From Perkinsus chesapeaki (Eukaryota > Perkinsozoa > Perkinsida > Perkinsidae): 27,909 nt of DNA. A program made the position numbers and the translations under genes. Positions within the stretch are counted from its first letter, which is position 1. Every line of letters begins with the position of its first letter. Location: contig JAAPAO010000287.1 of NCBI GenBank assembly GCA_013115145.1, positions 1 to 27,909 of the forward strand, written 5' to 3'. Shown in pieces: positions 1 to 19,495 of this stretch. The notes under the pieces are model-generated. The model was given only the letters and a program-made list of their open reading frames with translations. It was not told where the DNA came from and did no database searches.

Positions 1-689
1 TAATATTATCAGTTATGTTCATCGGACATAAAAATAAATTATCATTTTCGGCACTCTTAACGTTCTTTTCATTAAATACTTCGATATAGGGATGCGCAAA
101 AGGCGCGGTTTGACCGGAAGCCGAAGATATCAAACCCAAAGTGATACGAAGCGCGAACCTCATAGACCTGGATGAACTAAGCAAAGCTGAGAGGACATCA
201 GAAGCTTCCGAAAATGTTCTTGCTTAAAACCAATGGAGGAACTTTTTAAAGTCGGATAACTCGGAAGGAGACACCAATTTGGGTAACACCCGGCACATTC
301 ACGAGACGAGCATGACACCTCACACCTGCCGTGGGTGTGAAACGGCTTCACGAAACTAATCTTGTAATATATGAGTCAGGACTACGCACAAGACCCGACC
401 CAAAGATGAGCTACTTAGTAAGCAGTGCTTACAAGGCCTTCTTGATGAAGGGACGGAGCTCGGCAATTCATCAGTAAATTCTGTTGGATGGCCGCAAGTT
501 CGATCTGTCATTTTTCTGCGGGAAAATATTTTTTGGCCCGCGAACCTTCAAGATACAACGAGACCAACTTTCGTATTTTTCCTAGTAACCCCAGAGTAAG
601 AGCTATCGATTGGTGCATAGTATGTGATCATAACCCCTCTAGATCCAGCTCGATAATTTGTTCGCACGCACCCACAAAGTATTAGTAAA

Positions 690-1267: not shown

Positions 1268-4200
1268 ATGGCCAAAACCAACAACGCCAAACGAGCACCA
1301 TCTAAAGGAGGATCTTCGAAGGGCTCCTCGATCACAAAGAAGAAATCTGCTGTAACGAAGCAAACCTCGGCAGCAGCCATCGTGGCCGCTAAGACTGCTG
1401 GTCTTACTCACGTACCTAGTATAACCTATAAAGACCTTAAAGTCGGCACACAACTCCAGGCTGCTGTACAGGATATCTCATCAGAGGCTTTAACACTTGA
1501 CTTGCCATTTAATAAGGTTGGCTTCGTCAAAGGTACGCGGGATTTGAGGAAAGAGCGGTATCAGATGTTATTAGGTGTTGCTAATATGGTGGATGAAGGG
1601 GACATTAGTAAGCATATTAAGCAGGCTAATGTGACATTGAAGAGCTATAAACCGGAACATAGATTCCATAAAGGTCAATTGGTGTCCGCTGTTGTGATAG
1701 AGAATGACGCTACTGGCCGAGAAGTACCGGCAGCTGCCCTCCCTGCATTTTAATGGTATCATTCAGGCCTCGGTTCACTTATCTTTGTTACCATCTGTAT
1801 TGAACGCTGGTCTGACCCCTAAGAGCCTCAGGAAAAATATGTGGTTGTCTGCCTCTGTCCTGACCGAAGAGGCTCATGGGTATGTTGGATACATTGCGAG
1901 GTTGGTGACAATTGCTTGGTTGGTTAGATACGTCCTGAGCTTTGGTATAGACGGCATTACTGGCTTCCTTAAGAAGAGTGAACTACCGGCGCATGCAGAG
2001 GGTGTTGAGACTGTCAAGGGCGACAATCCTTTATTGGAATTGTCGGTCAGAGATAACGATGCTCCCGAGGCCGACCAGGTAGGGAGGGGCCTGTGGGGGG
2101 GTCTGTTGGGGATGGGTTGGTTCAGATGAAGTTGGGGACATTGTTAAACGTACGTATACTTGAGGAGAATGCTGCTAATAAGACCAGCATACAGTGCAGT
2201 GCAAAGGTTGGCAAGTTGGACGAGGAGGATAAAATAAGTGAGGGAGCTGGGGATTGAACCGGGGACATATGGGATGGTAATCAGGCAACAACACCAGTTC
2301 AGCTGTGAAGATGAACTTGTTGAAGGTGGGCACGCCTGTTGAGGCCAAGGTGACCCATGTATGTGTGCCGATTCAAGCTGGCAAGAAAAAGGCCAATAAG
2401 AAAAGTGCAGGAATTGAAGTCGGGTTCATGGGGCCGCTAAAGGGTGAGGATCTGTGACGCCGTGACGCGTTGGTTATCTTTCGTTATTTAGGCGTAGTTC
2501 ACCAGTATCACTTGGTTCATCCGATACTTAATCAAACGGACATGACAATGTCAACCAACCTTAAGGTGAGGAATCTTCATAGTGCGGTTAGAGGGTATCT
2601 TTGTGCGCACGCGTGCTGATGTTTAGGTTGGACAATCGGTGAGTGCTAGAGTGCTGGCAGTTTTGGCCGATCCTTCGTCGCACAATCGAGCTGTCTACCT
2701 CACCCTTCTTCCCAACATTCTTCAATGGAAGACTGTTGAGAGTCAAGTGGAGCCTGGAGTCACATTGGAGGTATCGGTATGGGGACAGTTTTTGTGTTAC
2801 ATCTTCCTGGTCAGGCTGCCAGAGTTATCGATCTCATCCCAAAGGATTGTACTCGCTTCGTTGATGGTGGCAACTTGTTAGTGGCCCATGCTACCCGATG
2901 TGCTTTGCCATATAGACAGCCAGGAGCGGTGGGCAAGAAAACAGATGTCAGAGTCCTTGGATCAAATCTGCTAGAGATGACGATACAGGTGATATAGTTT
3001 ATTGGATAAAAATATGGTATGTAGAGTACCATTAATATTCCTCTATCTTGTCTTTGCCACGTATTCGCTCACAGTGCGCCATTTTCTTGTGGAAGATTTT
3101 TACAAGAATACAAGACATTTCCAGTGGAGATTCCAACTTCATTCCGGTTCGATTATGTAGTCGTTGTCGCTGTGTGTAGGTTAGCGCTGAGGAGAAGGTG
3201 TTGGCAGCCTCTGTGGTGAACCTCCAACAGCTAGCTCCTGGTATGGTATTCGACAAAGCTGTTATCGAACATTTCGACAACGAGAAGGGCCTTATAGTGA
3301 GGCTTAGTGACTTCGTTACTGGTAGAGTGCCGAAGGAGCAATGTACAGACCAGGGAAATCAGAAGAAGTTGCCGAAGAGGTATACTGAAGAGAAGGCTGA
3401 GATTAGAGTCAGAGTGTTGGGGGTAGACCCAGTAAGAAGACAGGTAATTGGAGGGAGCGGTATGGTAGCGGCTGAGAATTGCACAAAATTGGGGACAGCA
3501 GCGAGGGGAAATTTATATGCACAAACATTACCTATATATCGTAGTGATAATCTTTCTTCATTTCATGGCGAGTGACGGAATTTCTGGAAGACTGGAAAGA
3601 TTCTTCCAGGTTACCTTGACTGCCAAGAAGTCGCTGGTAGGCCGACCTGATGATGAGGAACCTCCCAGAGCTCTCACCAGGAACGCTGATGCAGCTGTTG
3701 GAGATGTGTTTGTCGGTTACGTTAGTAAAATGCTGGACCATGGTGGTTGCTACGTGAAGTTCTTCGGTGAGGCATTTGGACTGATGCCGGTGGTCAGCGA
3801 AGGGTGTGCTCATAGTGGAGCATATGTTAAGGTTAGGGTCACTAGCAAGAAAGATTCGCCTAAGGGAACTAGATTAAGGCTACAGCAGATAAACGGTATG
3901 GAGGACGCTGTAATAGGGGAGATTACTAAGATTGGGGATCTATTGGCGATCGAGAAGCTCGAGGGGCCGGCAAAGTGCAGTGGGGGCCGACAGGGGGTTA
4001 AGATCAGATGCGAAGGAGGGGTTGATGTGCTGGTGCCGGTTATGCAGCTGGCTGATGACCCGGATATGGCAGTGGCTGTTATGGAGCGCGTTGAGAAAAT
4101 GCAAGATTTGCAAGATTTCCCAGTTAAGAGCGTCCTTGTCACTGCAGTGTTGAACAATGGTACTATAGAAGGGACATGCAAGCCAGTTTTGGTTGAGGAC

Positions 4201-7200
4201 GCGAAGTATAGGGAACTTCTCGGTGTCAGTCAGGAGGAGATTCCGGCAAAAATTAAAGTTGGGGAAGGACTGGTCGGATTCGTCTCGAATGTGACGACGT
4301 TCGGTGCGTTTGTGAAGGTCGGTGGTATCTCGGGACTGGTACCGAAGCCTAAGTTGGCGGAGGGATTTGTTGATGAAGTGTCGGAGGCTGTAGAGGTGGG
4401 ACAGACTGTCACAACGGCGGTGGTGTCATCGGTGGATGCTGAGAGGAACATGTTCAAGCTGGACATGCAGCCACGGCCGATCGCTGGGGTAGCTGAGCTG
4501 GGCGCGAGAGAGCAGCTTCGTGCAGAGGCGAAACTGGCGCTGGAAAAATGGCTTGGGGGCGGGAAACTGCCAAAGAGAGGGGAAGTTGTTACGGCGACCG
4601 TGGGAAAGAAGAAACCGTACGGATGGATGTTGGAGCTGAAGGAGTATTCGGAGGCAGCTGGTCTGTTGTTGAAGCTGGAGGGAAGTGACGAGATCGAAAG
4701 TGGAAAGAAAATGAAGGTCTTAGTGGTCGATGTCGATGTGGTGCGATCGGTTGTTTATACGTGCAAAGAGCCCGAGAAGAGCCGGAAGAGAAATCGTGAC
4801 AGTGAGGAGTTTTGTGAAGGGAAGGTTATGACGAGCCGGGGAGGGTACAGCACGGTACTGCTCGGCAGTGATGTATTGCTGGTGACCAGCGGACCTAGGA
4901 GCATCAGCCAGGAAGATACTGTCAAGGTTAAGGTGCATGCAGGTGTGGGTGTGCTAGTTAATGAAGATAAAAAGGCAAAGAAGGCGCGTCGCTCCGCTGG
5001 GGAGGGTGGCAATTTCGCGGCGGATGTGTCGGTTGTTGAGGAGATAGAAGAGCTAGTGGATGGCAAGGAGCTGTCTATGGAGGTAGGAGGGTGGCATGGG
5101 TTCGATCCCGGGATGGTGCATTTTTAGATTGTCGGTCACACGCCTACTAGAGTGATTCTTGTTGCCGCGCCTAACATTAGGGCGACCATGCATGTGGCTC
5201 ACTGCCGTCCAGGCGTGGAAGGAAAGCTTGCGAAGGAGTAATAAATGCTTTGGAGGGGGTTTGAACCGACGACATTGTGTATGATAGACGTGGAGCATAC
5301 CCCGTTCATCTAGATACCCGATCGGTTCTGTCGTTCCCGTTCGCGTGCTTGGATCCTCTCGTGTAGCAGCTTACTCTGCTGCTGGTACTAGCCAATGGAA
5401 TATAAGTGTTAGGGATCCCAAGACAGCGAAGGAGGAGTGCAAGGTAAGGGAAGGGGGACACTACCACACAACACTAACAACCGCAACCTTTGCCTAATCG
5501 CCAGATCACGATTTCTAAGTTTAATTTTTTTCTCAAAAGACTGCTATTTTACATCATAGCTATTTGGGGTGCAGGGAAAATAACAAACGACTCGCATTGT
5601 TGAAGAGATGCTCGACATCTGGGGGTCAACAAGGGATGCATTAGAAAATTTATATATTCACATTTTCTGAGCGGTTTCGAGGTTAAGTAAGTCCACGATG
5701 CTCAGCAACCACTCTAGACGGCAGGTCGTATCTGTATAGAACATTTCTCTACCTGACCAGCCTTTGTAAAATTTGGCTGCTTCTATGGTCCGAGGGAAGT
5801 ATCTTTTCAAGCCCGCCTTTCCGACAACACACAATAGCTATATCTCCTTCAGTTGTACAAGTGGAACCCAGCATCCCTCTGCGGTGCCTCAGTGGTGGGC
5901 TGTGCGGTGTCCTCAGTCAACGAGGATGAGATGTTCGTTACTGTGGATGTGCCTGGTGTGGAGATGAGCTCTCATTCGCAACTGGAAGCTGGCAAACTCG
6001 GGAATATGACAAAGTCGCAGAAGGCGAAGTAAGCGGGAGGTCGTGGGTTCGAATCCTGGTGGAGATATTTTTTAGGTTTTTCCGTCAGCATTTGGGTGAC
6101 CATGAGGCAGCTAATAGCACTTGCAAGGTGAGGCAGAAAAGATTCTTTTGAGGTTGACTCGCGTGCCACCGTTGGGATTAGCCAATTCAGTAGACCTACT
6201 AGAGATACCCAAAATAGTTGCTGTTTTTAAGATTGCTTTCCTAGGCGACATGTGTGTGTTCCGACAGGTGATGGTCGGCAAAATCCGGGCTGTCGACTTG
6301 CCGAAGGCTGTTGAGGAATATAAAATCGGTCACGTCCTCACCGAGGAAGTCAGAGCGTTTGATGTGGTACCAAAGAAGAAGATAGAGCTAACTGCTGTGG
6401 AGGAGGTGATGGTCGAAAGTTCAGCGAGTTGAGGAGAAGTCGGTATGATCAGGTTTCCGAGGGTACAGTGGTCACCACTGCCCGAGTGTCTAATAACAAG
6501 ACTGCTCCGATCCAGCGGATGTTGGATCTTCCAGGCGGCCACAAGGGGAGATTGCATGCTACTATGGCGTGTGATGATTGGAGAGCAAAGTGAGGGCGAG
6601 GGGATTCGAACTAGGGATCTACGGATTACTGGAGGGCTGCTCTACCGCTGTAGTATATTTACTGACTTTCTAATGTTAGTCCGTTGGCACCATTGACTCC
6701 CGGTATGTTGGCACCAGCTGTGAAGGTGATTAGTGTTGGCAGCGGGCGCAAGCCGACTGAGGTCTGCCTCAAATCGATAAGCCAGGCGCACGTGAAGTCC
6801 CTTCCAAAGGGAGCCAAGGACCTGAAGGAAGGAGGAAAGGTAAGGTCGTGGGTTCGAATCCCAGGGGCGGTATTTTTATTGTGATAGGTGTCCGGCTATG
6901 TCGCCAGTGTGAGCTCCTCGGGTCTCTTCGTCGCCCTCTCTCCATGGCTCACCGGCAGAGTGTTGTTGGGCAATGTTGCGGAGCATCCAGTCACTCCTGA
7001 GGAAGCTGGAAAACTGTATGTGGATTTCATACCGACTTTTCCTCAGATTCCGATTGTTAGGTACCCCGTTGGGACTGCGGTGAAGGAGATCGCAATCACT
7101 TCTGTAGACGTGACCAAGAACCAAGTAAGGCGGAGCGAAGCGTTTTTTGAATTACGTTTTTTCGATAGGTCGGCTTGGCTATTGTAAACAAGGACAAGAG

Positions 7201-19460: not shown

Positions 19461-19495
19461 GACGCGAGTTCGAACCCTGGCACGTGTATTTTTAG
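19461..19495 (+). repeat. tRNA-like 3' end just upstream of ArfGAP
   Basis: GCGAGTTCGAACCCTGG is followed by an acceptor-length stretch and A. A five-T run at 19489-19493, 20 nt after TTCGA at 19469, then leads into AG. This is the same architecture as the RRP5 introns at 5083, 6029 and 6840, but it lies 41 nt before the ArfGAP ATG, so it may be the end of an intron in the 5' untranslated region. Confidence 0.65.

Follow-up and report, generated by a model that had tools for sequence, protein, structure and literature searches.

The origin of new spliceosomal introns is an old question, and few of their sources have been caught. As described in PMC3443670, introners are repeats shared by numerous short spliceosomal introns within one genome, and those of Micromonas and of fungi lie only co-linear with transcription. 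For the introners of Aureococcus and Amoebophrya, inverted as well as direct repeats are reported (PMC7789003). According to PMC2394776, introns have also been made by short interspersed elements (SINEs), with one case in rice catalase A and four cases of human Alu in 3' untranslated regions. A term count for "tRNA" (transfer RNA) in the introner survey PMC9860276 gave 0 for the main text, and tRNA-derived introns were not recognisable by title or abstract among the papers listed from the literature searched, which takes in few of the subscription journals. Here, we describe a 27,909-nt stretch of DNA from the single-celled parasite Perkinsus chesapeaki (the window), located on contig C209 of a 35.4-Mb assembly of 884 contigs, in which three short introns of the essential gene RRP5 resemble tRNA 3' ends running into a terminator of the RNA polymerase III (Pol III) type. 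We hold it to be an even call that these three introns are members of a set of several hundred dispersed, 5'-truncated copies of tRNA 3' ends.

The RRP5 gene extends from 3469 to approximately 7333 on the forward strand (Table 1). Its long exon is 74% identical over 480 aa to P0001, a protein of a relative predicted from a metagenome, and the downstream exons, joined by hand, match yeast Rrp5 (E 2.5e-6); a homolog search with these downstream exons gave no match. The preliminary description had reported TTCGANN followed after 20 nt by a run of T's in each of the three introns, and on re-reading all three were exact. An A is indeed seen at the discriminator position (base 73) in every case, directly followed by T5, T6 and T5 in introns 1, 2 and 3, respectively. 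The T-run leads straight into the acceptor AG in introns 1 and 2, as had been stated, and in intron 3 the terminal AG ends the intron 10 nt past the T-run. With lengths of 45, 47 and 48 nt, the introns do consist mostly of tRNA-like sequence, since this part and the T-run together take up about 35 nt; in intron 1 the tRNA-like part starts around tRNA position 44 (5091) and ends at base 73 (5120). As introns of Perkinsus marinus measure 39–1622 bp, mostly less than 100 bp (PMC3101222), 45–48 nt is near the lower size limit.

All three introns have GT-AG ends and restore the frame on removal, the frame staying open into the next exon each time. When intron 1 is read through, a stop is met at the TAG of TTTTTAG, and with the read-through as query the similarity to P0001 ends at the valine of the donor GTA, one residue past the donor. 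Removal of intron 2 keeps the frame (...SQKAK up to the junction, FFRQHL behind it). At intron 3, the joined exons align gap-free across the junction with yeast Rrp5 (5wlc_NJ 1143–1200), this stretch alone being weak (i-Evalue 3.6). A PDB search with the intron 1 junction peptide gave no match, and several other RRP5 exon boundaries are provisional and off by a few bases. The frame and coding continuity across the sites, the gap-free junction at 6840–6887 and the end of the P0001 similarity at the first donor make it very improbable that these sites are no introns at all and only reflect a broken gene or a misread sequence.

The observation reaches far beyond RRP5. In the window, TTCGA-N14-A-TTTTT was found 4 times with 0.02 expected, and 0 of 100 shuffles reached 4. 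The pattern TTCGANN-N12-A-T5, which the preliminary description had suggested for a search of introns, was counted genome-wide (as TTCGA-N14-ATTTTT) and gave 358 places vs 40 for the reversed pattern. Allowing at most one mismatch, GGTTCGANNCC-N10-ATTTTT occurs 776 times in the genome (reversed pattern 7) and GGTTCGANNCC alone 1877 times (287); where position 73 is not A, the count is 68 vs 0. These genome-wide totals include a dispersed repeat and true tRNA genes, of which Arg-ACG, Arg-CCT, Val and Ile were recognised among the motif places. Apart from the small size of the motif, nothing speaks for a chance origin, and we consider it practically negligible because the counts lie from 9-fold (TTCGA-N14-ATTTTT) to more than 100-fold (GGTTCGANNCC-N10-ATTTTT) above the reversed control and the window shuffles never reach 4. 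The motif is also clustered, with several copies per few kb at the loci L046 and L134 and on contigs C464, C478 and C51, as in RRP5; 50 kb of sampled sequence (L039–L043) holds a single GGTTCRA-NN-CY site.

The T-run is placed precisely. Of 79 distinct places among the matches listed, 48 have their first TTTTT exactly at +20 and 7 at +19, offsets of 9–39 being admitted. A pattern ending in TTTTTAG matched 75 times vs 10 times when reversed, and in 44 of the 75 the match is as long as T5-AG at +20 would make it. Of 46 distinct sequences of true tRNA genes of this genome with their trailers, 11 have T4 directly behind the last base (5 of these 11 came from loci chosen for T5; otherwise 6/41), and 32 of the 46 trailers have no T4 within 12 nt. 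A terminator at base 74 is therefore present, but not the rule. That some true genes have this layout speaks for the earlier proposal that a Pol III terminator may serve as the pyrimidine tract. In two loci (L005 and L097; G000:C5 and C42), a tRNA-Arg(ACG) with a bacterial or organellar look, as judged by eye, has T5 right after base 73.

ARAGORN reported 0 tRNAs in the window and Rfam no tRNA in the window up to E 10, so the motifs in RRP5 and the rest of the window are fragments and not tRNA genes; both results, together with the intron length, rule out complete tRNA genes within the introns. A tRNA scan of 20 out of 30 retrieved loci gave a hit in 4, every one a complete tRNA. In intron 2, the first 28 nt (6029–6056) agree with positions 35–62 of tRNA-Thr(AGT) at 26 of 28 bases, with the 5' splice site falling in the anticodon loop; downstream of position 62 the intron departs from this tRNA. 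A genome search with the 3' part of tRNA-Thr(AGT) from GTAAG onwards (28 nt) found 22 places with up to 3 mismatches, 18 of them exact and 4 with 2–3 mismatches (reversed control 0), and window 6029–6056 is one of the 4 derived copies, with 2 mismatches. Judged by this alignment, intron 2 is clearly tRNA-Thr(AGT)-like and has a traceable parent. An exact copy of the same part lies on the same contig as intron 2 (C209:37644–37671), and the derived copy C390:21834 shares its contig with the exact match C390:17460, which hints at local copying, four cases being few.

The position of the 5' splice site also follows the tRNA. GTRRG occurs 9–45 nt upstream of TTCGA in 29 of 74 elements, compared with 12% of random places and 15/74 on the opposite strand, and GTAAG-N{0,30}-GGTTCGANNCC was found 160 times vs 12 in the control. 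The distance from donor to TTCGA is 19 in 31 and 12–13 in 18 of the 100 matches listed. A distance of 19 puts the GT at tRNA positions 35–36; in tRNA-Thr(AGT), which has AGTAAG in its loop, these are the second and third bases of the anticodon. Among the 31 places, 13 match the tRNA-Thr(AGT) 3' part exactly and were counted as genes; with the exact matches removed, distance 19 still accounts for 18 of 87 among the matches listed, vs 2–6 at each of 17, 18, 20 and 21. Five of the 18 were inspected and all fit introns (C32:14911, C90:67848, C117:31512, C150:26496 and C209:6029). At a distance of 12–13, the donor lies at the junction of anticodon stem and variable loop, where tRNA-Ile(TAT) reads GTAGGTCG.

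Many elements can be read as introns themselves. A small sense intron with an open joined frame and a positive coding score (75- and 36-nt exons) is possible at 26 of 77 elements; the figures for comparison are 427 of 4000 places drawn at random, 35 of the 189 sites that have ATTTTT and no TTCGA, and 1 of the 32 elements in antisense. For the open frame alone, the corresponding numbers are 31/77, 619/4000, 45/189 and 4/32. The ATTTTT sites without TTCGA are thus also above random in intron fit. With 90-nt exons, 14 of 41 elements fit vs 9%, and antisense 1/41. Since the coding model separates coding sequence weakly from its shadow, the counts with 75- and 36-nt exons are a group statistic only. 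Fits of 44–50 nt include those at L047, L048, L088, L094, L095, L122 and L136.

An information profile was made for 66 elements, after exclusion of 11 of the 77 as true tRNAs and members of the repeat family. Information is confined to tRNA positions ~44–73 and the T-run, and the 36-nt motif reads AGGTCGYRGG-TTCGAWYCC-YGGNRRSGGYA-TTTTT. Two of its conserved bases are outside the B box, namely C at 48 (57/66) and G at 46 (49/66), and base 72 is a pyrimidine in 64/66.

These findings suggest a route by which tRNA 3' ends may have become introns. Such an element would hold the variable loop, the T arm, the 3' acceptor strand and base 73, with a Pol III-type terminator directly behind, and many elements would be complete sense introns of ~44–60 nt. 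A tRNA piece of this kind would be close to a ready-made intron: the donor could come from the anticodon loop (positions 35–39, GTAAG, as in tRNA-Thr AGT) or, alternatively, at the junction of stem and variable loop (GTAAG or GTAGG, ~42–46), the terminator could act as the pyrimidine tract, in some elements directly adjoining the AG, and the spliceosome would then remove the piece as a minimal intron. The pieces would most likely stem from tRNA genes or their transcripts through copying that lost the 5' end, possibly as truncated reverse transcripts of pre-tRNA with a U tail, or as DNA fragments. Splicing in the cell, intron gain, insertion into exons and not into older introns, and the insertion route are what we infer from the above. 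A tentative reading, to which we give somewhat less than an even chance, is that hundreds of spliceosomal introns in this genome go back to 5'-truncated copies of tRNAs inserted into exons.

Several results weigh against this reading. The 5' half of the tRNA is absent from the elements, as positions 24–34 are nearly devoid of information and 35–43 carry at most 0.23 bit. The T stem no longer pairs: 49:65 pairs in 22 of 66 elements (shuffled 26.4) and clashes in 44, and 51:63 pairs in 31 (35.0), also below the shuffles, next to 53 (50.8) for 50:64, 59 (59.8) for 52:62 and 66 (65.0; 57 of 2000 shuffles also got to 66) for 53:61. T-arm pairing, in other words, was looked for and not found. An RNA hairpin kept as a T arm was rejected as well, with a mean folding z of -0.18 relative to mononucleotide shuffles in 71 elements, and with no covariation at 49:65 and 51:63. 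A full 7-bp acceptor partner is present upstream in 8/71 elements vs 3.7 in shuffled strands and in 6/6 true tRNAs, mostly at chance level in the elements, and a hidden full tRNA was rejected on this ground. The main fact on this side is that positions 63–72 have a separate consensus, CCYGGNRRSGGY (given from 61 on), with 66–69 freer than 64, 65 and 70–72; a mixture of tRNAs would not yield it. Furthermore, the remaining 13 of the 18 places with a donor distance of 19 may include other tRNA genes.

Parents are hard to find among the 14 tRNA species that were compared with the elements. Intron 1 reaches a best similarity of 10/19 and has no recognisable parent, and intron 3 reaches 13/19, without a traceable one. 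At least 16/19 is attained by 3 of 71 elements vs 0.1 in column shuffles. For 12, 15 and 19 upstream bases, 15, 7 and 0 of 200 column shuffles, respectively, got as high as the mean best similarity of the elements, and for 14 downstream bases 0 of 200 did. Apart from the shared consensus, likeness to particular parents is weak, if slightly above the column shuffles. Taken together, the tRNA-derived origin claimed in the preliminary description is partly supported: the resemblance of intron 2, the genome-wide excess and the spacing speak for it, the missing parents of introns 1 and 3 and the unpaired T stem do not. For intron 2 the earlier reading holds in kind; for the class as a whole it is plausible.

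A further point concerns the age of intron 1. P0001 reads through this intron as VSKGNVGSIPACCILCYG, a peptide that GGTTCGANNCC-N10-ATTTT could encode at one offset; the same is true of 0 of 3000 shuffles of this peptide and of 16 among 3000 peptides drawn at random from the window. As the peptide fits the motif, both intron 1 and its motif are probably present in the relative, as far as the back-translation of one protein can tell. Orthologs without an intron at these sites were not seen. A shared intron 1 would predate the split of the two organisms and points to an old, conserved intron, not to a recent insertion, and a shared motif may leave room for selection. Read-through tails like that of P0001 could also be mined for the intron sequence of relatives.

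Another possibility is that the 36-nt motif is kept by selection in a special class of introns, as a splicing signal or as a DNA site, e.g. for TFIIIC (B-box), its likeness to tRNA being at most ancestral, or convergent. The site-specific constraint, with 66–69 much freer than their neighbours, the lost T-stem pairing and the peptide of the relative at the same intron would all fit such a motif. So would the pairs of near-identical or identical 27-mers, which by eye share neither flanks nor whole introns; because of this, a copied intron unit is not visible, which counts against descent by copying, and an ordinary introner family with copied bodies was rejected on the same ground. A splicing motif, in turn, has no need of a 20-nt spacing to the T-run, of C48 and G46 or of a donor at the distance of the anticodon loop, it would not explain 26 of 28 bases of tRNA-Thr(AGT) in intron 2, and GTAAG also precedes the B box in the antisense orientation, with 117 places vs 6. 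Selection on the motif is, on balance, unlikely, though it deserves to be taken seriously.

The antisense places bear on the remaining alternative. For their comparison, 79 of the 100 antisense matches listed were set against 100 sense matches listed. Ten of the 79 are sense places again, because GGTTCGAACC is palindromic; in 19 of the other 69 places the gap is 11–12 nt, which puts the donor at base 73. Two longer RRP5 introns contain antisense tRNA-like sequence (Table 1), the one at 6590–6679 with T54 at 6610 (-), base 73 at 6591 and an A-box-like stretch further on. Both orientations near donors, together with these two introns, might indicate that tRNA pieces landed in older introns which later shrank, and that no intron was created. 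This is improbable in our judgement, as some 35 of 45–48 nt are tRNA-like sequence plus T-run and leave little room for an older intron, as the donor distances track tRNA positions, and as antisense elements with T5 fill a small intron in 1 of 32 cases only.

Table 1. Location of the RRP5 features and of the additional motif copy in the window.
Feature	Position	Strand	Description
Long RRP5 exon	3469..5082	+	S1 domain, Pfam PF00575 (E 7.6e-10); open from 3469
RRP5 intron 1	5083..5127	+	45 nt, GT...TTTTTAG; T-run 5121-5125
RRP5 intron, second antisense tRNA-like sequence	5237..5370	+	B box GGTTCAAACC on -, T54 at 5265; approximate boundaries
RRP5 intron 2	6029..6075	+	47 nt; base 73 at 6067; T-run 6068-6073
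RRP5 intron, antisense tRNA-like sequence	6590..6679	+	90 nt; boundaries by eye from frames
RRP5 intron 3	6840..6887	+	48 nt, GTAAGGTCGTGGGTTCGAATCC...A-TTTTT...AG; base 73 at 6872; T-run 6873-6877
Fourth motif copy	19469..19495	+	TTCGA-N14-A-TTTTT-AG; pattern match

Some other features of the window were noted. At 7127–7172 there is another short RRP5 intron with approximate boundaries, which has long T-runs and no B box. A dispersed repeat of ~100 bp ending in a B box and a T-run lies at ~437–540 (+) and also at L091, L106 and L114; the copy in the window reads TTCGATC..CTGTCATTTTTCTGCG and the end varies in its relatives. By its sequence, this repeat looks like a tRNA-derived SINE family. 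One protein of the window shows 66% identity with 77% length coverage to Perkinsus chesapeaki FOL47_007462, its other match being only itself.

If the proposed origin is true, tRNA 3' ends would be a new source of introns and Pol III termination signals would be tied to 3' splice sites. If the motif is instead kept by selection, it would represent an unusual intron-borne signal common to tRNA promoters. Like introners, the elements are a repeated sequence across many short, predicted introns of one genome; unlike the introners of Aureococcus and Amoebophrya with their inverted and direct repeats, they share a 36-nt motif resembling a tRNA end without sharing flanks. In the SINE-made introns, as described in the source named above, a retroelement that had entered an exon was spliced out as a new intron, and the proposed tRNA route would be of this kind; the differences are that hundreds of places are concerned here, that only the tRNA 3' end is present and that the pyrimidine tract would be formed by the T-run. 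An internal B box, a tRNA 3' end and oligo-T are found in tRNA pseudogenes and in SINEs derived from tRNAs, and the small introns have the same three parts and lack an A box, the 5' half and a SINE body. In yeasts, TFIIIC-only sites (ETC/COC loci) carry a B box without a tRNA gene, and to our knowledge they are tied neither to introns nor to a T-run at +20. The B box without a tRNA gene is thus common to these loci and to the elements described here, which differ from them in being associated with predicted introns and with a T-run at +20.
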